This document shows positions 1,088 through 42,704 of a stretch of 64,000 nucleotides of DNA, piece after piece. Every line of letters starts with the position of its first letter. Position 1 is the stretch's first letter. Position numbers and translations under genes: made by a program. The notes beneath the pieces are model-generated. The model had not been told where the DNA came from, made no database searches, and was given only the letters and a program-made list of their open reading frames with translations. Source of the stretch: Lachnospiraceae bacterium AC2031 (lineage in GTDB: Bacteria; Bacillota; Clostridia; Lachnospirales; Lachnospiraceae); assembly GCA_000687975.1 (NCBI GenBank), contig JIAB01000001.1, forward strand, positions 1,178,001 to 1,242,000, read 5' to 3'.

Positions 1088-1939
1088 TCAAACCTGTATT
1101 ACATCTCGAAGGAAATGGGCCACCCCGTCTTCTTCGTTCGAAGCGATTATCCCAGTGGCATATTTCTTCAGCTCCGGTAGTGCATTCTCCACCGCATAGG
1201 CCGCGTCGGCAATCTGGAACATCGGAATATCATTTACCGAATCACCGAACACAACCAGTTTTTTCTTTCCAAGCTTTTCCTTAAGCTTAACTATCGCTTT
1301 AGCTTTTGTACTATTCTCAGGACATAGTTCAAGCCAGTATTCATCGGCATACGAATCCTTTTGCAGAACCGTTTCCCAACCTTTAAGCTTCTTCACCCGT
1401 TCATATATAGGATCAAGTTTCTCCTTATCATCGATCATGGTGATATAGCCAACATCCCCAGCAAACATCTCATCCACACCACCTACTAAGATGATGCCTT
1501 TCTCTCCTGGTCTCTCTTCCAGATATTTCTGAATTCCGAGAGAATGCTCGCCATCAAAGAAGACCTTTTTCATCTCATTACCGTTCCAGATGCTTGTAAA
1601 TCCGCAGACAGGTAACTCAGTAAGTAATTCTCTAAGTCGACCTATCTCATCATCAGTAAAGAGCGCCTTTTCTATGATATCCAAAGTTCCCGGAGCAGCC
1701 AGTGCCGTTCCATTCCTTACAACAAGTGGCACCTGAATATCCAAAGGTTCCACTATATGCTGAAGGCTGGAAACTGAGCGAGCCGTTGCAACGGTAAATG
1801 TCATCCCCTGTTTTATAAGACCGTTAATGATACTGAGGGACTCTTCTGAAATACTTTTATCATTTCTCATAAGAGTTCCATCCAGATCAGTTATAAATAA
1901 AGTCTGTTCCATATCTATTGTCTTTAATTCATTATTCAT
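1088..1939 (-). CDS. Cof-type HAD-superfamily phosphatase
   Basis: A 283-residue cytosolic hydrolase of the HAD-IIB (Cof) group, which removes phosphate from sugar phosphates, nucleotides or other small metabolites. Motif I is FITDLDGTLM with the nucleophilic Asp, motif II is the TVATARS stretch, a Lys lies in the central part, and the C-terminal acidic motif is VVFGDSVNDIPMF, which binds Mg2+. I chose the ATG at 1937-1939, preceded by AGGGGGA, rather than the longer frame that opens at 2026, because the longer frame would translate the terminator hairpin of the upstream gene. The substrate cannot be read from sequence. It is transcribed alone, with a terminator on either side. Confidence 0.87.
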   Translation of the reverse strand: MNNELKTIDMEQTLFITDLDGTLMRNDKSISEESLSIINGLIKQGMTFTVATARSVSSLQHIVEPLDIQVPLVVRNGTALAAPGTLDIIEKALFTDDEIGRLRELLTELPVCGFTSIWNGNEMKKVFFDGEHSLGIQKYLEERPGEKGIILVGGVDEMFAGDVGYITMIDDKEKLDPIYERVKKLKGWETVLQKDSYADEYWLELCPENSTKAKAIVKLKEKLGKKKLVVFGDSVNDIPMFQIADAAYAVENALPELKKYATGIIASNEEDGVAHFLRDVIQV

Positions 1940-5571: not shown

Positions 5572-5645
5572 TCGGTGCGACAGGATTTGAACCTGCGACT
5601 TCGTCGTCCCGAACGACGCGCTCTACCAAGCTGAGCCACGCACCG
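5572..5645 (-). tRNA. tRNA-Pro (anticodon CGG)
   Basis: A 74-base cloverleaf reads on the minus strand from 5645: acceptor CGGTGCG pairs with CGCACCG, the D arm carries GCTCAGCTTGGTAGAGC, the anticodon arm is CGTCG-TTCGGGA-CGACG with anticodon CGG, and the T arm is GCAGG-TTCAAAT-CCTGT. The C1-G72 pair is usual for tRNA-Pro. The discriminator is A and no CCA is encoded. It reads the CCG codon. No duplicated 3' end is visible in this window, so it does not mark an integrated element here. Confidence 0.95.
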
Positions 5646-5700: not shown

Positions 5701-6405
5701 CTAATCTGAAGGCATCCTGCTTATGAAAACCGTCGAAATATACGCTATAACCGCAATCACAAAAATCAGTATCTGATAGTTCGAAAGCAAGCCTCCAGTA
5801 TGCCCTTCTCTTAGATATTCCTGACTTATCTTCGCTATTGTTGAAAGGATAATAACCACTTTCGCAGCACGTATATGACTGATAGATTCAGAACCTGAAA
5901 GATAAACTATCATTCCGATGATAAAGATCAAGACAAATGTTATCGTCTCGGTTAGCTGTATAGGAAAGCATCCCACCCCGCCATATCTTTCATAATGAAT
6001 TGAAAAAGGTCCTTCGTATGGAACGCCGTAGCAACAGCCAGCTATATGACAACCTATCTTGGAAAGCCCGTACATAAGTGGTGCAACTAAGATCCATACT
6101 GTAAGTGCCTCCCTAGTATGCTCCCGATGAATGAGCACAGATGTAACAGCTCCCAGCATGAGTCCTATGGCTCCTCCCGCTGCAACAAATCCAATCTTAT
6201 GGATATCTCTCAACAGAATAATAGATGTCATTATCGAACAAACAATAATGCATACAAAGGTAAAGAGTGCTGTAAATAATACAGTCACTCTTTCCACACC
6301 TGCTTTTCTCATTAGGACACATGCTACGATAATTCCTATAAGGATTGAACCGAGCACGATAGGTCCATAGAAAGTATATTCTAATTCTGGAATAAAAAAT
6401 GTCAT
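5701..6405 (-). CDS. Lgt-like (prolipoprotein diacylglyceryl transferase family) membrane protein
   Basis: A 234-residue polytopic membrane protein with about seven hydrophobic segments. Lgt-family landmarks are present: SKIGCHIAGCCYG in the central part, GCFPIQLTE after it, and a C-terminal YLREGHTGG. Lgt moves diacylglycerol from phosphatidylglycerol to the lipobox Cys of prelipoproteins. The protein is shorter than typical housekeeping Lgt (about 260-300) and the usual GRxGNFxNxE signature is not seen, so it may be a divergent paralog with another lipid or acyl substrate. It stands between tRNA-Pro and a PQQQ-repeat membrane protein gene. Confidence 0.68.
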   Translation of the reverse strand: MTFFIPELEYTFYGPIVLGSILIGIIVACVLMRKAGVERVTVLFTALFTFVCIIVCSIMTSIILLRDIHKIGFVAAGGAIGLMLGAVTSVLIHREHTREALTVWILVAPLMYGLSKIGCHIAGCCYGVPYEGPFSIHYERYGGVGCFPIQLTETITFVLIFIIGMIVYLSGSESISHIRAAKVVIILSTIAKISQEYLREGHTGGLLSNYQILIFVIAVIAYISTVFISRMPSD

Positions 6406-6436
6406 AGAGAAAGTAATATATCAAATCAATAAGCTA

Positions 6437-19416: not shown

Positions 19417-20874
19417 TTAATACGAAACCTTTGTGTTCAGTGCATTTACTACTGCCTGCGCCTTATTGAGGCTCTCCTGAAACTCTGTAGCTGGTACAGA
19501 ATCTGCAACGATTCCTGCGCCGCTTCGAACAAATACTTTTCCATTTTTCTTATAAGCGATTCGGATTGCAATACATGTATCCATATTTCCAGTGAAATCG
19601 ATGTATCCGATGGCACCACCGTAGATGCCTCGCTTGTTGTTTTCCAGTTCATCGATCAGCTGACAAGCTCTGATCTTAGGTGCTCCTGAAAGTGTTCCTG
19701 CTGGAAGCACTGCCTCTATAGCATCAAGTGCATCCTTGTCATCTCTAATCTCACCTCTTACGGTGGAACCGATATGCATTATGTGAGAGAACTTCAGGAC
19801 ATCCATATAATGTTCAACTTCAACTGTTCCGAACTTGCTTACTCTGCCAAGATCATTTCTTCCCAGATCAACCAGCATGTTGTGTTCAGCCAGTTCCTTT
19901 TCATCTACGAGAAGTTCAGCCTCAAGCTGCTCATCCTCTTCCTTTGTAGTTCCTCTAGGTCTTGATCCTGCAAGTGGGAATGTATGAAGCACTCCATCCT
20001 TAAGTTTAACAAGAGTTTCTGGAGAAGCACCTGCCACCTCAACATCGGTTCCTGAGAAATAGAACATATATGGTGAAGGGTTAATAGTTCTAAGAGCTCT
20101 GTAGGTATCCAGAAGGCTGCCTTCAAATGGAGCCTCGAGCCTGTTGGATAGAACAATCTGGAAGATGTCTCCCTCAAAGATATAATGCTTACCCTTCTCA
20201 ACCATCTCACAGTACTCTTCTTTATTAAAGAGAGGTTTAAACTCTCCAAGTACTTTTCCGGCTGATTCCTTAAAGCGTTCGCCTGTTGTAAGTAGGTCCA
20301 CAAGCTGCTGCAAGTCCTTCGTAGCTCTGTTATATTCTGTATCAAGTTCAGCCAGCTTAACATTTGCGATGATCACTATCTTCTGTCTTACATTATCAAA
20401 TGCGATCACCTTATCGAAGAGCATCAGGTCCACATCTCTAAACTCTTCCTCGTCCTTAACATTATTTCTAAGAACTGGCTCGCTGTATTTCAGATAATCA
20501 AAGGAGAAGTAACCAACAAGTCCACCAGTGAATGGAGGGAGAAATGGAAATCTAGGACTTTTATATTCTGCAAGGATCTGTCTCAGATACTCTGTAGGAT
20601 TCTCTGTATGAAAGCTTACATCTCCTGCCTTCATCTCTCCGTTGATGCATGTTATCTCAAGCTTTGGTTCAAATCCGAGAAATGTATATCTTCCCCAGGT
20701 TTCGTTGGCCTGTGCTGACTCCAGCATGTATGTATGAGAAGATACATTTTTCAGTATCCTGAGTGCCTCTATCGGAGTGATAAAGTCCGAAAGAATCTCA
20801 GTAGCTACTGGAGCAACTGTATATTCATTTGTATCAAGATCTCTTAATTCCTCTAAACTAGGTCTGATATCCAT
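19417..20874 (-). CDS. trpE: Anthranilate synthase component I
   Basis: A 485-residue chorismate-binding enzyme making anthranilate with TrpG. The N-terminal part carries SHTYMLESAQ, matching the LLES element that binds feedback tryptophan, and the C-terminal catalytic domain has SPSPYMFYF-like and PLAGSRPRG, EHNMLVDLGRNDLGR, LPAGTLSGAPKIRA and GGAIGYIDFTGNMD motifs. The start ATG has AAAGGAG upstream. It is the second gene of the T-box-controlled operon. Confidence 0.97.
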   Translation of the reverse strand: MDIRPSLEELRDLDTNEYTVAPVATEILSDFITPIEALRILKNVSSHTYMLESAQANETWGRYTFLGFEPKLEITCINGEMKAGDVSFHTENPTEYLRQILAEYKSPRFPFLPPFTGGLVGYFSFDYLKYSEPVLRNNVKDEEEFRDVDLMLFDKVIAFDNVRQKIVIIANVKLAELDTEYNRATKDLQQLVDLLTTGERFKESAGKVLGEFKPLFNKEEYCEMVEKGKHYIFEGDIFQIVLSNRLEAPFEGSLLDTYRALRTINPSPYMFYFSGTDVEVAGASPETLVKLKDGVLHTFPLAGSRPRGTTKEEDEQLEAELLVDEKELAEHNMLVDLGRNDLGRVSKFGTVEVEHYMDVLKFSHIMHIGSTVRGEIRDDKDALDAIEAVLPAGTLSGAPKIRACQLIDELENNKRGIYGGAIGYIDFTGNMDTCIAIRIAYKKNGKVFVRSGAGIVADSVPATEFQESLNKAQAVVNALNTKVSY

Positions 20875-20893: not shown

Positions 20894-21298
20894 CTATACT
20901 GTCTTATAGCCTCTGCTTCTGAGACAAGACTCAACCTCGAGATATCCCTTAACTTTCAGTACTGCAAGTGGTGATACGAAGTCGCGACTAAATGATACGT
21001 ATATATAATCTATATTGATATTGCTATCGTCCAAAGCTGCCAGAAGCTTTGTAAGACTTCCTATCTCATCAGGAATCTCAACTCCGATAACATTATCGAG
21101 CTTGCTCATGTAACCTGATGCAAGGAGAAGCTCATTTGCTTTCTCTGGTTCAGTTACAAGCATTCTTACGATTCCGAACTCTGCACTGTCGTTAGTTACT
21201 ACGTTGTAGATATCTATGCCTGCATCAGATATAAGCTTCGAAACCTTCAGCATAGCTCCTTTAGTATTTTCTGTGAAAACAGATACTTGATTTATCAT
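20894..21298 (-). CDS. Tandem ACT-domain protein
   Basis: A 134-residue protein made of two ACT modules (about 1-68 and 69-134), the first opening INQVSVFTENTKGAMLKVSK and the second VIGVEIPDEIGSLTKLLAAL. ACT domains bind amino acids. There is no catalytic domain, so this is a free sensor or regulator. It is the first gene of the trp operon with AGGAGG upstream, directly after the T-box terminator. Similar small tandem-ACT proteins are often encoded beside phenylacetate-CoA ligase genes in Clostridia; here the ligase gene lies about 10 kb away. Tryptophan or another aromatic compound is the likely ligand, by inference. Confidence 0.82.
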   Translation of the reverse strand: MINQVSVFTENTKGAMLKVSKLISDAGIDIYNVVTNDSAEFGIVRMLVTEPEKANELLLASGYMSKLDNVIGVEIPDEIGSLTKLLAALDDSNINIDYIYVSFSRDFVSPLAVLKVKGYLEVESCLRSRGYKTV

Positions 21299-21313: not shown

Positions 21314-21640
21314 AAAACAAAAATCCCAGCAATCAAATTAATGATTGCTGGGACAGGATAATCTTTAATCTACCTGCGGTACCACCCGGCTTGGTGTGCT
21401 ATCACACCCTCTCAGTACATACTCCACATAACTACTTAATACTACTTAAGTCATACGTTTATATGTTGAACTTTGTTTACGAAGGTTCAGCTCCGTCTCC
21501 CATACTCAGCCCACGCCTTTCAGGTCGCCCTCTGAAGTCCATTCAGTCAGACACTTTACATCCGCTAGTCTCACCATCTAACGATTCTCTGTAGAAAAGG
21601 AGGTCTTACCTACTTACTCTTCATCTTCGGTTTTCGATAG
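21314..21640 (-). promoter_or_regulatory. T-box riboswitch of the trp operon (Trp specifier)
   Basis: The minus-strand leader has the order of a T-box: GATGAAGAG-like start, a stem I with an AG-bulge loop ATGGTGAGA, a specifier region GAATGGACTTC whose UGG codon (21539-21541) is Trp, a stem II element GAGTATGGGAGACGG, the T-box antiterminator GGGTGGTACCGC (21376-21387) and a terminator of 12 bp, TCCCAGCAATCA with TGATTGCTGGGA (21324-21353), followed by TTTTTGTTTT. Uncharged tRNA-Trp would pair with the specifier and with UGGU and allow read-through into the ACT-trpEGDCFBA operon. It accounts for the 404-base gap 21299-21702. Confidence 0.88.
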
Positions 21641-37319: not shown

Positions 37320-38003
37320 TCATCCCTGCCTTCTCTTCTGAAGCGATACAACTATGAGGTTTCCGATGGTCTGTATTATCTGAACCAGGACTATCAGCAT
37401 CACGATACATATGATCATTACTTCCTTCTGATATCTCTGATAACCGTATCTGTAGGCCAGATCTCCGATTCCACCTCCACCTACAAGTCCAGCCATGGCT
37501 GAAAAACCAAGAACTGTTATAGCTGTCACTGTAATATTTTTTATAAGTGATATCCTTGCTTCTGGAAGAACTATCTTTGCAATCACGTGGCTCTTTTTAG
37601 CTCCTGATGAAAGAACTGCTTCTAGAACCCCTTTATCAACCTCAGAAAATGAAGCCTCCGCGAGTCTTCCAAAGAAGGCTGCTGCCGCTATAGTTAGCGG
37701 AACGATCACTGCTTTTGATCCTATCTTTGTTCCAACGATTATGGATGAAAGTGGAAGGAAGAAAATCATAAGAATAAGAAATGGTATCGAACTGATCATA
37801 TTTGATATAAAACCAACTATCTGATATACCGGCGTATTCTTCGAAAGCAGCGGCTCGTTTGTTACATATAGAACAAGTCCAAGTGCTATACCAAGAATTA
37901 TCGCAAGTACTAGTGAAGTGAAGGTCATGAATGCTGTCTCTCTAAGTGCCTTAACAAGCTTGTCCTGTATTTCTAAAAATATCTGAATAAAATTAGCTAG
38001 CAT
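37320..38003 (-). CDS. metI: MetI-type ABC transporter permease
   Basis: A 227-residue permease with five to six membrane spans and the MetI/binding-protein-dependent transport motif EAVLSSGAKKSHVIAKIVLP (EAA loop), which touches the ATPase. With MetN and the lipoprotein MetQ it would import an amino acid. The gene overlaps metN by 11 bases and ends one base before the porC start, so the importer and oxidoreductase genes are clearly one transcript. Confidence 0.88.
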   Translation of the reverse strand: MLANFIQIFLEIQDKLVKALRETAFMTFTSLVLAIILGIALGLVLYVTNEPLLSKNTPVYQIVGFISNMISSIPFLILMIFFLPLSSIIVGTKIGSKAVIVPLTIAAAAFFGRLAEASFSEVDKGVLEAVLSSGAKKSHVIAKIVLPEARISLIKNITVTAITVLGFSAMAGLVGGGGIGDLAYRYGYQRYQKEVMIICIVMLIVLVQIIQTIGNLIVVSLQKRRQG

Positions 38004-39033
38004 ATCTCAGCACCTCCGTTCTTCCTGCGTTATCCTTAATGAATTCCAACGCTTCTTCTTTTGCCTCATCTGTTCCATCCACACAGATATATAAAACTCC
38101 AAGAGGCTTTTTCTTTATAAATTCAATCTTTCCGTGAAGTATATTGATCTTCACATCAAACTTCTTTATTGCTTCAGCTATCAGAGCTCTTTCTGCATTT
38201 TCGTTATAATATTCAACTCTGATCACTGTTCCTTTTGCATTCTCTAAAACATTCTTTGGGATTGTGAACTTGTTTTCTTTTTGTATGAGTGTCTCAGTGA
38301 ACTCATTCTTTGGTTTTGTGAAGACATCATATACATCTCCAGCTTCTACAACCTCTCCGCCATCCATAACTACGACTCTGTCGCAAACCTCTTTTACAAC
38401 ATCAAGCTCATGTGTGATGATCACGGTTGTAATATTCAGTTCCTTATTGATTTTCTTTATAAGACTCAGAACAGCTTCGGTTGTTTCGGTATCCAATGCT
38501 GATGTTGGCTCATCACAGAGAAGAATCTTTGCATTGTTTGCAAGTGCTCTTGCTATAGCAACTCTCTGCTTCTGTCCACCTGACAGCTGTTCAGGAAATG
38601 CGTGCTTCTTATCTTCGATTCCTACATAGCTGAGTAGTTCTTCGATTCTCGATGCAGCTTCTTTTTTAGACTTACCATTTTCTGTCAGAACAAATTCGAT
38701 ATTTGAATAAACATCCTTGCTGTTGATCAGATTGAAATGCTGAAATATCATTCCTATGTTACTTCGCAGAAGACGAAGGTCTTTATCTTTCAATTTTCCA
38801 ACAACCTGTCCATCAACATTAACTTCTCCCGATGTTGGGTTCTGCAAACCGTTAATGGTTCGAAGAAGTGTACTCTTTCCTGCTCCAGAGGAACCGATGA
38901 TTCCAACTATCTCGCCTTCCTTTATAGAAAAGCTTACGTCCTTCACAGCTTCGACCTTCTTACGCTTCTGCCTGAAGCTTACATTTACTTTTTCGAAGCG
39001 TATGATATCCTTTCTCTCATTCTTATCTGACAT
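37993..39033 (-). CDS. metN: MetN-type ABC transporter ATP-binding protein
   Basis: A 346-residue ATPase with Walker A GIIGSSGAGKSTLL, signature LSGGQKQRVAIARAL, Walker B ILLCDEPTSAL and the H-loop IITHEL. The C-terminal 95 residues form the NIL/ACT-like domain that senses methionine in MetN proteins (ENAERALIAEAIKKFDVKIN to the end). The start at 39031-39033 is set by GGAG nine bases upstream. It is the first gene of the nine-gene operon. The 140 bases upstream show a possible LysR-type site (TATAGCAAACCATAG) but no gene. Confidence 0.9.
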   Translation of the reverse strand: MSDKNERKDIIRFEKVNVSFRQKRKKVEAVKDVSFSIKEGEIVGIIGSSGAGKSTLLRTINGLQNPTSGEVNVDGQVVGKLKDKDLRLLRSNIGMIFQHFNLINSKDVYSNIEFVLTENGKSKKEAASRIEELLSYVGIEDKKHAFPEQLSGGQKQRVAIARALANNAKILLCDEPTSALDTETTEAVLSLIKKINKELNITTVIITHELDVVKEVCDRVVVMDGGEVVEAGDVYDVFTKPKNEFTETLIQKENKFTIPKNVLENAKGTVIRVEYYNENAERALIAEAIKKFDVKINILHGKIEFIKKKPLGVLYICVDGTDEAKEEALEFIKDNAGRTEVLRYAS

Positions 39034-39182
39034 ACTCTCCATCTCCTATCATCTATGCTTTGTTCTTTTGTTATATCCAACTCTCTTAACGGCGTTCATT
39101 CTAATTCAAACTTTAGTTATCTGTCTAAGTCTAAAAATCTATGGTTTGCTATAAGTTTTTTATATAACCAGTTGTTTTTACA

Positions 39183-39255: not shown

Positions 39256-40167
39256 TTAATCAAGAACCATCTCCTGATATTTGCTAAGTTCTTCGATGTA
39301 CTTCTGTCCCATCTCGCTAAGCTTGGAGTGCTTACGTGAGATGTAACCGATGGTCATCTTCTCTTTAGTCTTTAGTTTTACTGCACAGTAATCAGATCCA
39401 TTTAGATCCTCGCAGATGATACCTGAACAAAGGGTATATCCGTTAAGACCAACCATCATATTCAGGATGGTAGCTCTATCATTTACTCTGATCAGACGCT
39501 TATATTCGTAGGTACTCATAACCTCCTCAGCGAAGTAGAAGGAGTTATGCTCGCCCTGAGAAAATGCAACGCAAGGATAGTCATCAAGATCTTTCATGGT
39601 GACATACTTCTTGTTTGCCAGAGGGTTACTCTTGCTCATGTATGCATAGATGCTACAATCGAAAAGTGGTGTGAACTTAAGACCTGCATCACGAAGAATC
39701 TTCTCAAGAACGGTTCTGTTGTAATCGTTCATGTAGAGAACGCCGATCTCACTCTTCTGGCTCTTAACGTTATCGATAACATCATAGGTTCTAGTCTCGT
39801 GAACCTCGAACTCAAACTCGTCCATACCATACTGCTTGATAACATTAATAAATGCATTCAGCGCAAATGTATAATGCTGCATGGAAACATGGAAAGTTCT
39901 CTTTATATTACTCTTGGAGATATACTTTGCATCCAGGATATCGTACTGTTCAACTACGGACTTTGCATACCCCAGGAACTCCTCACCCTTTACAGTCAGC
40001 TTGATACCACTGTTAGTCCTGGTGAATATATCGAAACCAACCTCCTGCTCTAAAGATTTAAGAGCAGCAGTAAGACTTGGCTGCGAAATGAAGAGACTCT
40101 TAGCCGCTTCATTTATAGAGTTCTGCTTTGATATTTCAATCACATATTTTAACTGATTTAATGTCAT
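39256..40167 (-). CDS. LysR-family transcriptional regulator
   Basis: A 303-residue LysR regulator. The helix-turn-helix is in residues 1-60 (KQNSINEAAKSLFISQPSLT, then ALKSLEQEVGFDIFTR) and the rest is the effector-binding domain. It lies between cysK and the metN operon, in the same direction as both, so it may control sulfur amino acid genes, the importer operon, or both. CmbR/MtaR-type LysR proteins with similar duty are known in other Firmicutes, but I cannot test the relationship. A second LysR gene lies at 56993. Confidence 0.87.
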   Translation of the reverse strand: MTLNQLKYVIEISKQNSINEAAKSLFISQPSLTAALKSLEQEVGFDIFTRTNSGIKLTVKGEEFLGYAKSVVEQYDILDAKYISKSNIKRTFHVSMQHYTFALNAFINVIKQYGMDEFEFEVHETRTYDVIDNVKSQKSEIGVLYMNDYNRTVLEKILRDAGLKFTPLFDCSIYAYMSKSNPLANKKYVTMKDLDDYPCVAFSQGEHNSFYFAEEVMSTYEYKRLIRVNDRATILNMMVGLNGYTLCSGIICEDLNGSDYCAVKLKTKEKMTIGYISRKHSKLSEMGQKYIEELSKYQEMVLD

Positions 40168-40263: not shown

Positions 40264-41172
40264 TTAGAAGAGTCCCTTACTTATATATCTGTCTCCTCGA
40301 TCAGGAAGTATAGCAACTATATTTCCACTTTCAATCTCTTCTGATAGTTTTAATGCTGCATAGAGGGCTGCACCTGATGATGAACCTGCAAGGATACCTT
40401 CAGTTTTTGCAAGTGCTCTTGCTGTGGTGAAGGCATTTTCATCTGTTATCTTGAATACCTTATCAACAAGAGATACATCCATGGTATCTGCGATAAAGTC
40501 ATTTCCGATTCCTTCTATGTCATAGTCAGCATGCTCACCACCGCCGATGATGGAACCAACTGGATCAGCCAGCACACCCTTAATATTAGAATCCTGCTCC
40601 TTAAGATACTTTACAGCACCAGAGAAGGTACCGCCACTTCCAGCTCCTGCAACAAGGTAATCAATCTTTCCATCCAGCTGTCTATAAATCTCTGGACCTG
40701 TTGTCTCATAATGAGCCTGCGGGTTGGCTGGATTCTTAAACTGCTTCATAGAGATTGCTCCAGGTATCGAAGCAATAATCTCGTCAGCCTTTCTGTCTGC
40801 ACCAAGCATTCCTTCTTCTCTAGGTGTATGCACTATCTCTGCCCCAAGAGCTGCCATAACCCTCTGCTTCTCCAGAGAGAACTTCTCTGGAACTGCAAAG
40901 ATTATTTTATAGCCCTTGTTGAGGGCTGCAACTGCAATTCCGATTCCAGTATTTCCAGCTGTTGCCTCAACTATAGTTCCGCCTGGTTTAAGGATGCCTC
41001 TTCTCTCTGCATCCGCTATCATATACATTCCTACTCTATCTTTAACACTTCCTGCTGGATTCATAAGCTCCAGCTTTACATATAAATTAACACCGGGCTT
41101 AACGCCCATATGATTAATCTTCATTATAGGAGTGTTACCTATCATATCCTGAACACTATCAAAAACTTCCAT
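40264..41172 (-). CDS. cysK: Cysteine synthase (O-acetylserine sulfhydrylase)
   Basis: A 302-residue fold type II PLP enzyme forming cysteine from O-acetylserine and sulfide. The PLP lysine is in NPAGSVKDRVG, the substrate loop is EATAGNTGIGIA, and the phosphate loop GAGSGGTFSGAV. The ATG at 41170-41172 has AGAAAGG upstream; the longer frame to 41232 overlaps the upstream gene and is rejected. It follows the gamma-synthase/lyase gene by 13 bases and would share the cysteine attenuator leader. Confidence 0.93.
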   Translation of the reverse strand: MEVFDSVQDMIGNTPIMKINHMGVKPGVNLYVKLELMNPAGSVKDRVGMYMIADAERRGILKPGGTIVEATAGNTGIGIAVAALNKGYKIIFAVPEKFSLEKQRVMAALGAEIVHTPREEGMLGADRKADEIIASIPGAISMKQFKNPANPQAHYETTGPEIYRQLDGKIDYLVAGAGSGGTFSGAVKYLKEQDSNIKGVLADPVGSIIGGGEHADYDIEGIGNDFIADTMDVSLVDKVFKITDENAFTTARALAKTEGILAGSSSGAALYAALKLSEEIESGNIVAILPDRGDRYISKGLF

Positions 41173-41185
41173 AATAAATTCCTTT

Positions 41186-42340
41186 CTAAGCGTTAATTGC
41201 CTGCTCAAGGTCGGCAATGATGTCATCTGCATCCTCGATACCTACTGAAAGACGAATAAGCTCGTCTGTGATTCCAACAGCTTCACGAATATCCTTAGGG
41301 ATTGCTGCATGAGTCATAGATGCTGGATGGCATACAAGTGACTCCACACCACCAAGGCTTTCCGCCAAGGTAACGAGTTTCAGTGACTTGAAGAACTTCT
41401 TATAGTCGTACTCTTTCTTCAGAGTAAATGAGATCATAGCTCCAGGTCCATCGGCCTGCTTCTTCTGAACTTCGTAACCAGGATCTGACTTAAGTCCTGG
41501 ATAGTAAACCTTTTCTACGTAGCCGCTCTTTTCGAGCCACTCAGCGATCTTGATAGCATTTGCCACGTGTCTATCCATTCTGACAGCAAGTGTCTTGATA
41601 CCGCGGATCATAAGGTAGCTGTCCCATGGACCGAGAACGCCGCCGATGGCATTCTGCAGATAGTAAAGTCTGTCAGCAAGCTCCTTATCATTTACAATAA
41701 CGAAACCTGATACTGTATCGCTGTGACCACCAAGATATTTAGTTCCGCTGTGTACTACGATATCTGCACCAAGTGAAAGTGGTCTCTGAAGATATGGTGT
41801 AAGGAAGGTATTATCTACGATAACCTTCTTGTTATAGATCTTTGCAAGTTCTGATACCTTCTCGATATCAGTTACTGTAAGAAGTGGGTTCGCAGGGCTC
41901 TCAATATATACAGCTTTGATTTCATCTGCATTTTCGCCCTTTAGTTCTGCTTCAACCTCATCAAGATTTGAAGTATTAACGATTGTGTATGTGATTCCAA
42001 AATTCTTGAATACGTTATCCAGAATACGGAAGGTACCACCATAGATATTATCCGAAACTATGAGTCTGTCACCTTCCTTGAAAAGCGAAAGAACTGTATT
42101 GATGGCTGCAAGACCAGAAGCAAATGCAAGTCCATACTCTCCACCTTCCAGATCAGCTATCAGTTTCTCGAGCGCTGCTCTTGTTGGGTTACCTGTTCTT
42201 GAATACTCCCAGCCTCTATTCTCTCCAAGACCATCCTGCTTATATGTTGAAGTCTGATAGATAGGTACATTTACAGCACCAGTTCTCTCATCACCATCTA
42301 TACCACCATGAATTACTAATGAATTTAACTTAATTGACAT
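41186..42340 (-). CDS. Cystathionine gamma-synthase/lyase family enzyme
   Basis: A 384-residue PLP enzyme of the Cys/Met metabolism group. The PLP lysine lies in VVHSGTKYLGGHSD, the cofactor and substrate residues are around YIESPANPLL, SRTGNPTRAALE (with EYSRTGNPT) and SLGGVESLVCHPASMTHA. The family includes MetB, MetC, MccB and O-acetylhomoserine sulfhydrylase, and sequence alone does not settle which. Coupling with cysK and the polycysteine leader favours cysteine formation from homocysteine (reverse transsulfuration) or a role in both. The start has AAGGAG upstream. Confidence 0.88.
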   Translation of the reverse strand: MSIKLNSLVIHGGIDGDERTGAVNVPIYQTSTYKQDGLGENRGWEYSRTGNPTRAALEKLIADLEGGEYGLAFASGLAAINTVLSLFKEGDRLIVSDNIYGGTFRILDNVFKNFGITYTIVNTSNLDEVEAELKGENADEIKAVYIESPANPLLTVTDIEKVSELAKIYNKKVIVDNTFLTPYLQRPLSLGADIVVHSGTKYLGGHSDTVSGFVIVNDKELADRLYYLQNAIGGVLGPWDSYLMIRGIKTLAVRMDRHVANAIKIAEWLEKSGYVEKVYYPGLKSDPGYEVQKKQADGPGAMISFTLKKEYDYKKFFKSLKLVTLAESLGGVESLVCHPASMTHAAIPKDIREAVGITDELIRLSVGIEDADDIIADLEQAINA

Positions 42341-42419: not shown

Positions 42420-42429
42420 ATTGCATAAT

Positions 42430-42462
42430 AAAAGCCCGGAGGCTGTTGAAAAGCTCCCGGGC
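42430..42462 (-). terminator. Attenuator terminator of the cysteine leader
   Basis: On the minus strand GCCCGGGAG pairs with CTCCGGGC with one bulged G (42434-42462), followed by TTTTATT. It lies 60 bases past the leader peptide stop codon and 90 bases before the operon's first gene. Its 5' arm with the bases just upstream (42456-42466) is complementary, except for one mismatch, to leader bases 42567-42577. Confidence 0.8.
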
Positions 42463-42521
42463 ATATGGTTTCGAACTTCGTTTATGACATATGAGTCACT
42501 CTACTGTTCAGTGTTTGGCGT

Positions 42522-42638
42522 TTACTTGAGGCAGCAACATCGGCACGTCAAGACACCAGCCATATTATATGTCCGGGTATTTAACATAGAACAGCAGCAG
42601 CAACAGTTTTTAGTTATGCTTACTATATTCTTTGACAT
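42522..42638 (-). CDS. Polycysteine leader peptide (38 aa)
   Basis: A 38-codon ORF with ATG at 42636-42638 and a good ribosome site (AAGGAG eight bases upstream). The peptide begins MSKNIVSITKN, then five consecutive Cys codons (12-16), and ends CRCCCLK (codons 32-38), so nine of 38 residues are Cys. It is preceded by a consensus promoter and followed by a terminator and the cysteine synthesis genes. Such an order is that of a leader peptide where a ribosome stalls at Cys codons when charged tRNA-Cys is low. The codons 21-24 region can pair with the terminator 5' arm. A secreted or modified small peptide is an alternative but less likely. Confidence 0.82.
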   Translation of the reverse strand: MSKNIVSITKNCCCCCSMLNTRTYNMAGVLTCRCCCLK

Positions 42639-42675
42639 AGCCTTGTCTCCTTCTTCCAAATCTTTGAACGGTGTC

Positions 42676-42704
42676 ATATTAACACTATTCGCCTAGTAAG
42701 TCAA
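42676..42704 (-). promoter_or_regulatory. Promoter of the cysteine leader transcript
   Basis: TTGACT (42699-42704) and TAATAT (42676-42681) on the minus strand have the ideal 17-base spacing. Transcription would begin near 42669, about 30 bases before the leader peptide start. Confidence 0.78.

Follow-up and report, generated by a model that had tools for sequence, protein, structure and literature searches.

The attenuators of the enteric trp and his operons act by ribosome-mediated transcription attenuation. For Firmicutes, the available part of PMC2940859 names T-boxes, S-boxes and protein repressors as the means of cysteine control, and it describes Cys T-boxes of Clostridium perfringens as the cysteine-responsive controls of cysK, ubiG-mccBA and transporters. 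A survey from 2010 (PMC2965389), in its accessible portion, names no earlier leader-peptide attenuator in Firmicutes besides its own His case and sets the ermC leader aside. Outside this phylum, the accessible text of PMC8632094 predicts ribosome-mediated attenuation for the uORFC-8-2 motif, 5' of cysS in Rhodobacterales, and the excerpt at hand of a paper citing Canestrari 2020 describes translation attenuation for the mycobacterial polycysteine leaderless ORFs. An actinobacterial survey (PMC1262725), in the part available, detected no conserved terminator hairpins in mycobacteria. Already known, then, are leader-peptide attenuation as such, Cys leaders in Actinobacteria, those predicted for Rhodobacterales cysS, and Cys T-boxes in Clostridium.

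We analysed a stretch of 64,000 nucleotides from Lachnospiraceae bacterium AC2031 (the window), in which a Cys-rich leader precedes a metB-cysK operon on the minus strand. The T-box covariance model gave no match at the leader locus when the window was scanned, with 6 matches elsewhere in the window's own genome, and an Rfam scan of the 64-kb window at the gathering threshold returned only a tRNA (5572-5645) and no SAM or other sulfur riboswitch. We found no description of the element in the open-access literature searched, including the accessible parts of PMC8632094, PMC6429828, PMC2864571, PMC2965389, PMC1262725 and PMC2940859, and this absence is not proof of novelty.

One stretch of the window does resemble a T-box riboswitch (21346-21636, minus strand; 69.3 bits, below the Rfam cut-off of 93). 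It sits 5' of an ACT-domain ORF (20894-21298) and an anthranilate-synthase-type gene (19417-20874), and, with the function that we presume for these two genes, it is probably a Trp T-box.

The leader locus and its operon

The locus comprises a promoter, a Shine-Dalgarno sequence, a 38-codon leader ORF, an intrinsic terminator, a metB/mccB-like gene and cysK (Table 1). This is the order that the preliminary description had read on the minus strand, and its coordinates and codon numbers proved right. A TG precedes the -10 hexamer of the window promoter, which scored 9 of 12 in the promoter scan; across 144 elements of the family described below, the best promoter score 5' of the leader averaged 10.2 of 12, compared to 7.7 for shuffled sequence. 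Since the predicted -10 ends 37 nt 5' of the leader ATG and a Shine-Dalgarno sequence is present, the ORF start is predicted to be non-leaderless. The encoded peptide, MSKNIVSITKNCCCCCSMLNTRTYNMAGVLTCRCCCLK, contains both of the Cys clusters claimed earlier, CCCCC at codons 12-16 and CRCCC at codons 32-36. The window genome (3.19 Mb, a single contig) has one clear copy of the element.

Table 1. Parts of the leader locus and genes of the downstream cluster in the window.
Feature	Position	Strand	Details and basis
Promoter TTGACT-N17-TAATAT	42676..42704	(-)	-35 TTGACT 42704-42699; -10 TAATAT 42681-42676
Leader Shine-Dalgarno AAGGAG	42647..42652	(-)	Read from sequence
Leader ORF, 38 codons + TAA	42522..42638	(-)	ATG 42638, TAA 42524-42522; peptide profile matches relatives
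Cys codons 12-16, proposed stall site	42591..42605	(-)	Two Cys codons there in nearly all relatives
Strand 1, 5' arm of predicted protector hairpin	42581..42588	(-)	Folding of window copy; family support partial
Strand 2, putative antiterminator strand within ORF	42559..42579	(-)	TACCCGGACA 42579-42570 + ATGGC 42563-42559; covariation in relatives
3' arm of predicted protector hairpin	42544..42551	(-)	Folding of window copy
Second Cys cluster C-R-C-C-C, codons 32 + 34-36	42531..42545	(-)	Cys enriched 3' of strand 2 in relatives too
Strand 3, partner of strand 2 and terminator 5' arm	42454..42468	(-)	CCAT 42468-42465 + TGCCCGGGAG 42463-42454
Intrinsic terminator	42427..42462	(-)	Stem 42462-42434, U-rich tract 42433-42427
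Cystathionine gamma-synthase/lyase-type enzyme (MetB/MccB-like)	41186..42340	(-)	NCBIfam PRK06176, 5e-167, below curated cut-off
Cysteine synthase cysK	40264..41172	(-)	TIGR01136 above cut-off, TIGR01139 just below
LysR-family regulator, third cluster gene	39256..40167	(-)	Element precedes a LysR gene in another genome (L074)
MetN-like ABC transporter ATPase	37993..39042	(-)	TIGR02314, below curated cut-off
MetI-like permease	37320..38003	(-)	PRK10782, below curated cut-off

The 50-nt terminator segment of the window copy folds at -16.8 kcal/mol. It was unlisted by a simple terminator scan of the window, probably because its stem has an internal mismatch. Leader bases 42577-42567 pair with 42466-42456 at 10 of 11 positions, with one A-C mismatch, just as had been proposed. 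Because strand 3 is common to antiterminator and terminator, the two structures are predicted to be mutually exclusive. Among the operon genes, cysK is listed as an ORF from 41232, and its likelier start at 41172 was chosen by inference; of the 383 residues of the MetB-like product, 4 are Met and 1 is Cys, and CysK (301 residues) has 10 Met and 0 Cys.

A family of homologous elements

A peptide search of 299 genomes of the window's family revealed similar short ORFs 5' of MetY, MetB and transporter genes. A leader-peptide profile, built from an alignment of 15 peptides and searched in 397 genomes of this family, identified at least 46 homologous elements in 38 of the 397 genomes, most of them with a matching terminator strand. 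Fifty of the best 51 places were inspected, and four were spurious (L073, L076, L078 and L082). Although this set comprises mostly one genome per genus, several genomes carry multiple copies: four loci in G236, three in G290 and two each in G189, G007 and G335. A DNA pattern restricted to the Cys codons plus a portion of strand 2, TGTTGTCGAATGNNNNNCTCCCRG, had at least 121 matches in at least 119 stretches of the genome collection, and the titles among the 80 matches listed name Lachnospiraceae, Ruminococcaceae/Oscillospiraceae, Saccharofermentans, Blautia, Clostridium porci and one Eggerthellaceae. Eight of the 121 were dropped (four duplicates, two with Ns, two at contig ends), leaving 113 usable matches, one of which (L195) looks like a chance match. 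Merging 112 pattern and 46 profile matches and removing duplicates gave a set of 151 elements, in which the distance from leader stop to strand 3 has a median of 27 nt (5th-95th percentile, 15.5-47).

A covariance model of the element matched 15 of 391 genomes of the class at E 0.01; 13 of these matches look sound, including that in the window genome. Of the other two, the match in G447 (L217) falls within a protein-coding gene and is spurious, and that in G625 (L216) is the Met-Met variant discussed below. At the level of the phylum, 5 of 398 genomes matched, namely the window genome, one genome already in the class set and three that add two families outside the class, with leaders present; strict filters lose weak copies from all of these range figures. 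When the RNA model was compared with 30 metB-type loci, it matched clearly at the window's own locus and one other, weakly at one, and once at a locus edge 3' of the gene, and was unmatched in 26. The DNA pattern had zero exact matches in viral contigs, and a 191-nt stretch of the L133 element had zero matches in E. coli genomes and plasmids.

Several individual loci deserve mention. Two loci 5' of metB orthologues, L248 (MKKILTQKIMQKKMCCCSFMQMCMAMDYFHACCFPPDCR) and L246 (a CMCSCC ORF), have other Cys-rich leaders without the CTCCCGGG strand; candidate terminators are visible by eye and the conserved strand 2 is absent. These are possibly unrelated or strongly diverged cysteine attenuators, so that cysteine leaders in the window's family may extend beyond the element described here. 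A recognisable copy (71 bits) stands 5' of metY and cysK at 6261-6417 on the minus strand of L138, a contig labelled Eggerthellaceae (Actinomycetota), and reflects either gene transfer or a mis-binned contig, the two being indistinguishable. At L102 (932-1199), two tandem matches to the leader pattern are separated by Ns, as either an assembly duplicate or a true tandem copy.

The pairing between leader and terminator was preserved in most of the elements. Among the usable pattern matches listed, the 10-nt downstream partner pairs at 9 or more of 10 positions in 111 of 113, compared to 7.5% for shuffled downstream DNA, and the Watson-Crick score of each element with its own partner (9.59) exceeded that with swapped partners (mean 9.21, maximum 9.33 of 2000). 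We scored the 2:3 helix as these ten pairs plus five for ATGGC with GCCAT in two alignments. The first holds 45 family sequences (the 46 profile elements minus L079, which has a long spacer), with strand 3 placed by eye in L055, L058 and L074. The second holds 56 sequences from both searches: 147 of the 151 elements were eligible, 122 were non-redundant, and the first 64 of these (window copy, then shortest first) were taken minus eight atypical ones (L185, L071, L072, L038, L102, L081, L109 and L075). In the 45 sequences, 90.6% of cells were paired, compared to 86.4% in shuffles and 22-47% when the helix was slid; 89.2% were paired in the 56. Double-changed cells numbered 27 vs 6.8 in shuffles for the 45 sequences and 37 vs 8.4 for the 56, a level reached in 0 of 500 shuffles in either case, although these shuffle counts are not readable as probabilities because related sequences are not independent.

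Typical exchanges were CAGGCA/TGCCTG, GGACA/TGTCC and ATGACC/GGTCAT, and RNAalifold proposed the 2:3 helix unprompted on 45 homologues. Strand 3 likewise scored higher with its own strand 4 than with swapped ones (4.81 of 6 vs 4.56, maximum 4.63 of 2000). Pairing is poor in several elements, for example L043, L055, L058, L070, L072, L074, L075 and L081. The preliminary description had suggested looking in relatives for kept Cys codons and covarying pairing, and both were found; with homologues that share the window copy's layout in 38 of the 397 family genomes, the pairing goes beyond chance, and conservation, covariation and the unprompted RNAalifold choice of the same pairing argue for the attenuation that it had proposed. 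The comparison also points to a second part of the antiterminator, ATGGC with GCCAT.

Selection at the RNA level is further suggested by codon choice. In the profile set, which we used for codon counts and which was not selected by DNA, synonymous codons were nearly fixed, with Arg as CGG in 33 of 34 cases, Ser as TCC in 28 of 32 and Ala as GCA in 25 of 29; in neighbouring genes these codons make up 8%, 22% and 48%, respectively. Moreover, the second half of strand 2 (part 2b) was kept although out of frame in 18 of the 124 elements in which it is recognisable, some of the 18 being close relatives, and selection therefore acts on the RNA. The peptide motif SRAxxMAG is thus a by-product of RNA strand 2, and the element is a clear case of a peptide motif that arises in this way.

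Proposed sensor codons and switch

The preliminary description had assigned sensing to a run of Cys codons. Its sensing by Cys codons finds support in their conservation, but the unit kept in the family is a pair and not a polycysteine run: 106 of 144 elements have two consecutive Cys codons at the stall place, 29 have three and one has five. The window's five-Cys run is unusual within the family. The last Cys codon lies 11 nt 5' of strand 2 in 38 of 40 non-duplicate elements found with the profile (in the pattern set this spacing is fixed by the pattern itself), and the leading edge of a ribosome reaches ~11 nt past the stall codon. With this spacing, the front of a ribosome waiting there would stop just short of strand 2, and the conserved sensing unit appears to be two Cys codons 11 nt 5' of the antiterminator strand. 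Leader Cys codons are UGU in 134 of 176 cases, compared to 19% in neighbouring genes. The Cys pair is followed by CGA in 32 of 40 elements; neighbouring genes use this codon for 3% of their Arg residues. Enrichment in Cys recurs further along the leader, where it occupies position +14 relative to the fixed Met in 31% and ends the peptide in 55 of 151.

Met codons are enriched just 5' of the Cys pair and outside every strand identified: of 151 elements, 46% carry one at -5 and 64% at -4, the profile set giving 55% and 60%. At least one Met is found there in 25 of 25 MetQ-type, 73 of 78 MetY, 8 of 9 MetB-like and 15 of 20 TcyA-type loci; TcyA is the name that we presume for one binding-protein group, and the MetQ-type group is the remainder of the binding-protein cluster after TcyA-type. 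The window copy, with its five Cys, has no Met at -5 or -4. We consider it possible, if only tentatively, that the element is a sulfur amino acid sensor with swappable Met and Cys stall codons (M-M-C-C-R-M), a portable RNA module serving a dispersed regulon of Met/Cys-stripped proteins, in which the later Cys codons may serve as a second checkpoint and of which the window copy would be the pure cysteine version.

One variant has Met in place of Cys. At L216 (~1475-1650, minus strand; 25.8 bits, E 0.0016 with the covariance model in the class genomes), the leader MYGLRLDNRMMRMLHSRAEVRGLIAV reads ATG ATG CGA where others have TGT TGT CGA, and strand 2 (TTCCCGAGCA) and a matching downstream CGCTCGGGA precede an ABC transporter ATPase, presumably MetN from its looks. 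Among 121 genomes of the family to which this locus belongs, 1 had the exact Met-Met pattern, and none of 250 genomes of the window's family had a similar one, which leaves the variant a single case.

We interpret the element as a cysteine-responsive ribosome-mediated transcription attenuator belonging to a widespread homologous family, a reading to which we give a probability of roughly 0.88. Its anatomy, its homology, the 2:3 covariation and its link to sulfur genes with sulfur-poor products are evident from the sequences. Ribosome stalling, the protector hairpin, the sense in which control runs and the read-through are inferred, as follows. The leader would be translated while RNA polymerase is still transcribing. 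With plentiful charged tRNA-Cys, the ribosome would run on, so that a hairpin between strand 1 and the segment after strand 2 could sequester strand 2 and allow terminator 3:4 to form. With scarce charged tRNA-Cys, the ribosome would wait at the Cys codons, its edge covering ~11 nt, which would block strand 1 and leave strand 2 free to pair with nascent strand 3; no terminator would then form and metB-cysK would be transcribed. In relatives, charged tRNA-Met is perhaps sensed too.

Folding calculations were consistent with parts of this scheme, although both models used (equilibrium folding and folding before strand 4 exists) are weak and ignore kinetics. At -14.8 kcal/mol, compared to a mean of -25.9, the 2:3 duplex of the window copy ranks as the weakest among the 151, and at equilibrium with strand 4 the terminator of this copy is predicted to win in all ribosome states, including the stalled one (0.79). 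Before strand 4 exists, the 2:3 index for the window was 0.03 on naked RNA, 0.73 with a ribosome on the first Cys cluster and ~0 with a ribosome at the stop codon, values that are not probabilities (family means reach 1.06). For the relatives, equilibrium folding with strand 4 favoured 2:3 in 76% of 148 as naked RNA, 84% with the ribosome on the Cys codons and 53% with it at the stop codon; the mean difference was +0.06 between stalled and naked (p 0.08) and +0.29 between stalled and stop-codon ribosomes (p 2e-11). Since 2:3 is favoured without a ribosome in most relatives, termination there would have to depend on folding order. A ribosome at codon +14 did not raise predicted antitermination over naked RNA in the family, nor appreciably in the window copy (0.04 vs 0.03), so the idea of two checkpoints draws only on the Cys enrichment.

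The predicted protector hairpin (1:2) is likely but only partly supported. The sequence after strand 2 (GGGGCGTTCGACA type) complements strand 1 (TGTCGAATGC) at 7 or more of 8 positions in 14.6% of elements, compared to 0.7% of shuffles, and complementarity was above that of shuffles overall (Wilcoxon p 3e-13). Many elements, including the window copy, fold into the hairpin, its mean pairing probability being 0.53 vs 0.42 for shuffles and higher than each element's own shuffles in 85 of 148. Its covariation is weak, as 19 of 500 shuffles reached the score and 85 of 500 the number of paired cells. The local hairpin proposed earlier at 42556-42576 survives as the inner part of this predicted structure, but with family support that is only partial.

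Three other explanations of these data were weighed. The conserved short ORF could encode a Cys-rich peptide with a function of its own, in metal binding or redox chemistry or as the precursor of a modified peptide, RNA structure being secondary, and the conservation of CCRMxxSRAxxMAG would agree with this; however, the RNA strand explains that motif, its synonymous codons are nearly fixed, and the frame shifts in the 18 of 124 elements lose part of it while the RNA is kept. Moreover, 15 members had no NCBIfam match bar one at E 0.06, five peptides gave zero Pfam matches, and there were zero PDB matches, making a functional peptide extremely unlikely. Lower still do we rate the idea that the 2:3 pairing works without ribosome stalling, for instance through recognition by an RNA-binding protein or in a riboswitch. 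Naked RNA is indeed predicted to favour 2:3 in most relatives, but this idea leaves the conserved ORF, its Cys codons, their spacing and the UGU bias without a role, and Rfam had zero matches at the locus and zero in 12 relatives up to E 1.

Closer to our own interpretation is a sequence-specific nascent-chain arrest in the style of TnaC or ErmL, which would sense cysteine or another small molecule and operate the same terminator switch. Stalling from any cause would have an identical effect on the switch, and the Met residues at -5/-4 (46% and 64%) and the CGA after the Cys pair (32 of 40) could be arrest features. Against this, residues further upstream, in the exit tunnel, are not conserved, and conservation lies mostly 3' of the Cys codons and in the RNA; such an arrest, the least improbable of the three, is still very unlikely.

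Downstream genes and comparison with known systems

A downstream ORF was present for 147 of the 151 elements, and 139 of the 147 belong by cluster to sulfur amino acid enzymes or transporters. They comprise 87 PLP sulfur enzymes (78 MetY-like, 7 MetB/MccB-like and 2 others), 45 substrate-binding proteins, 5 permeases and 2 CysK-type enzymes, with 8 singletons besides. By motif, the 45 binding proteins divide into 22 with GANITPH, 20 with RT[LV]DEI, 2 with SQGPYTELFE and 1 other. Among products checked individually, that of L155 is an O-acetylhomoserine sulfhydrylase (TIGR01326, above cut-off) and that of L084 is MetQ/NlpA-like (below cut-off); the others were PALP (L065), a permease (L081), LysR (L074), JAB (L171), an iron alcohol dehydrogenase (L182), a cyclase (L068) and an M20 peptidase (L070).

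Genes that serve in sulfur starvation are known for encoding proteins that spare sulfur. Across the 139 genes, the first product contains 0.28% Met and 0.18% Cys, compared to 2.30% and 1.22% for 369 further ORFs, each 250 codons or longer, at the same loci, and it is lower in Met/Cys in 117 of the 121 loci with both (p 7e-21). The difference comes from the PLP enzymes, with 0.19% Met and 0.08% Cys, and the binding proteins, with 0.25% and 0.29%; the five permeases are not sulfur-poor (2.30% and 1.15%). Such first products are as expected for genes of sulfur starvation.

Three loci showed less common gene contents. At L046, the gene encodes a glycyl-radical enzyme whose best match is a (2S)-3-sulfopropanediol dehydratase, below cut-off and with the protein cut by the locus end; sulfonate use under the control of cysteine supply would fit. 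The single protein at L105 (738-2441) combines an SBP_bac_3 (family-3 binding) domain with a MetQ/NlpA domain and, lying under the element, looks like a fusion for binding both cystine and methionine. At L074, in another genome, the element stands directly 5' of a LysR gene that by eye resembles the one at 39256-40167 in the window, so the attenuator may also govern a sulfur regulator.

Taken together, these data add a cysteine attenuator family, as we interpret it, at MetY, MetB, CysK and cystine/methionine transporter genes, spread over Lachnospiraceae, Ruminococcaceae/Oscillospiraceae-type and Saccharofermentans genomes, including gut and rumen bacteria. With its signature, sequence would reveal the sulfur regulon in many gut and rumen bacteria that are uncultured.

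The element shares with the enteric trp and his attenuators a leader ORF with codons for the operon product, mutually exclusive antiterminator and terminator structures, and a terminator before the first structural gene. It differs from them in that it would sense Cys, in that its antiterminator strand is a double-coding part of the ORF, and in its occurrence in Clostridia at many separate loci. Compared by description with the His leader peptides of hisS/hisZ in bacilli, which are also classical leader-peptide attenuators in Firmicutes according to the available part of PMC2965389, it concerns a different amino acid and different genes. The Cys T-box of Clostridium perfringens reads tRNA directly (PMC2940859, accessible portion), whereas the window locus has no T-box match. 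Like the mycobacterial polycysteine ORFs, which are Cys-responsive, it has a polycysteine short ORF 5' of cysteine genes; as far as the accessible sources go, however, those ORFs are leaderless and translational in action, while the window element has a Shine-Dalgarno sequence, a 5' leader and an intrinsic terminator. With uORFC-8-2, as described in the accessible text of PMC8632094, it has in common two tandem Cys codons and an intrinsic terminator. Again compared by description from that text, uORFC-8-2 belongs to Alphaproteobacteria, precedes cysS only and is dominated by UGC, whereas the element described here is dominated by UGU and precedes genes for sulfur enzymes and transporters.
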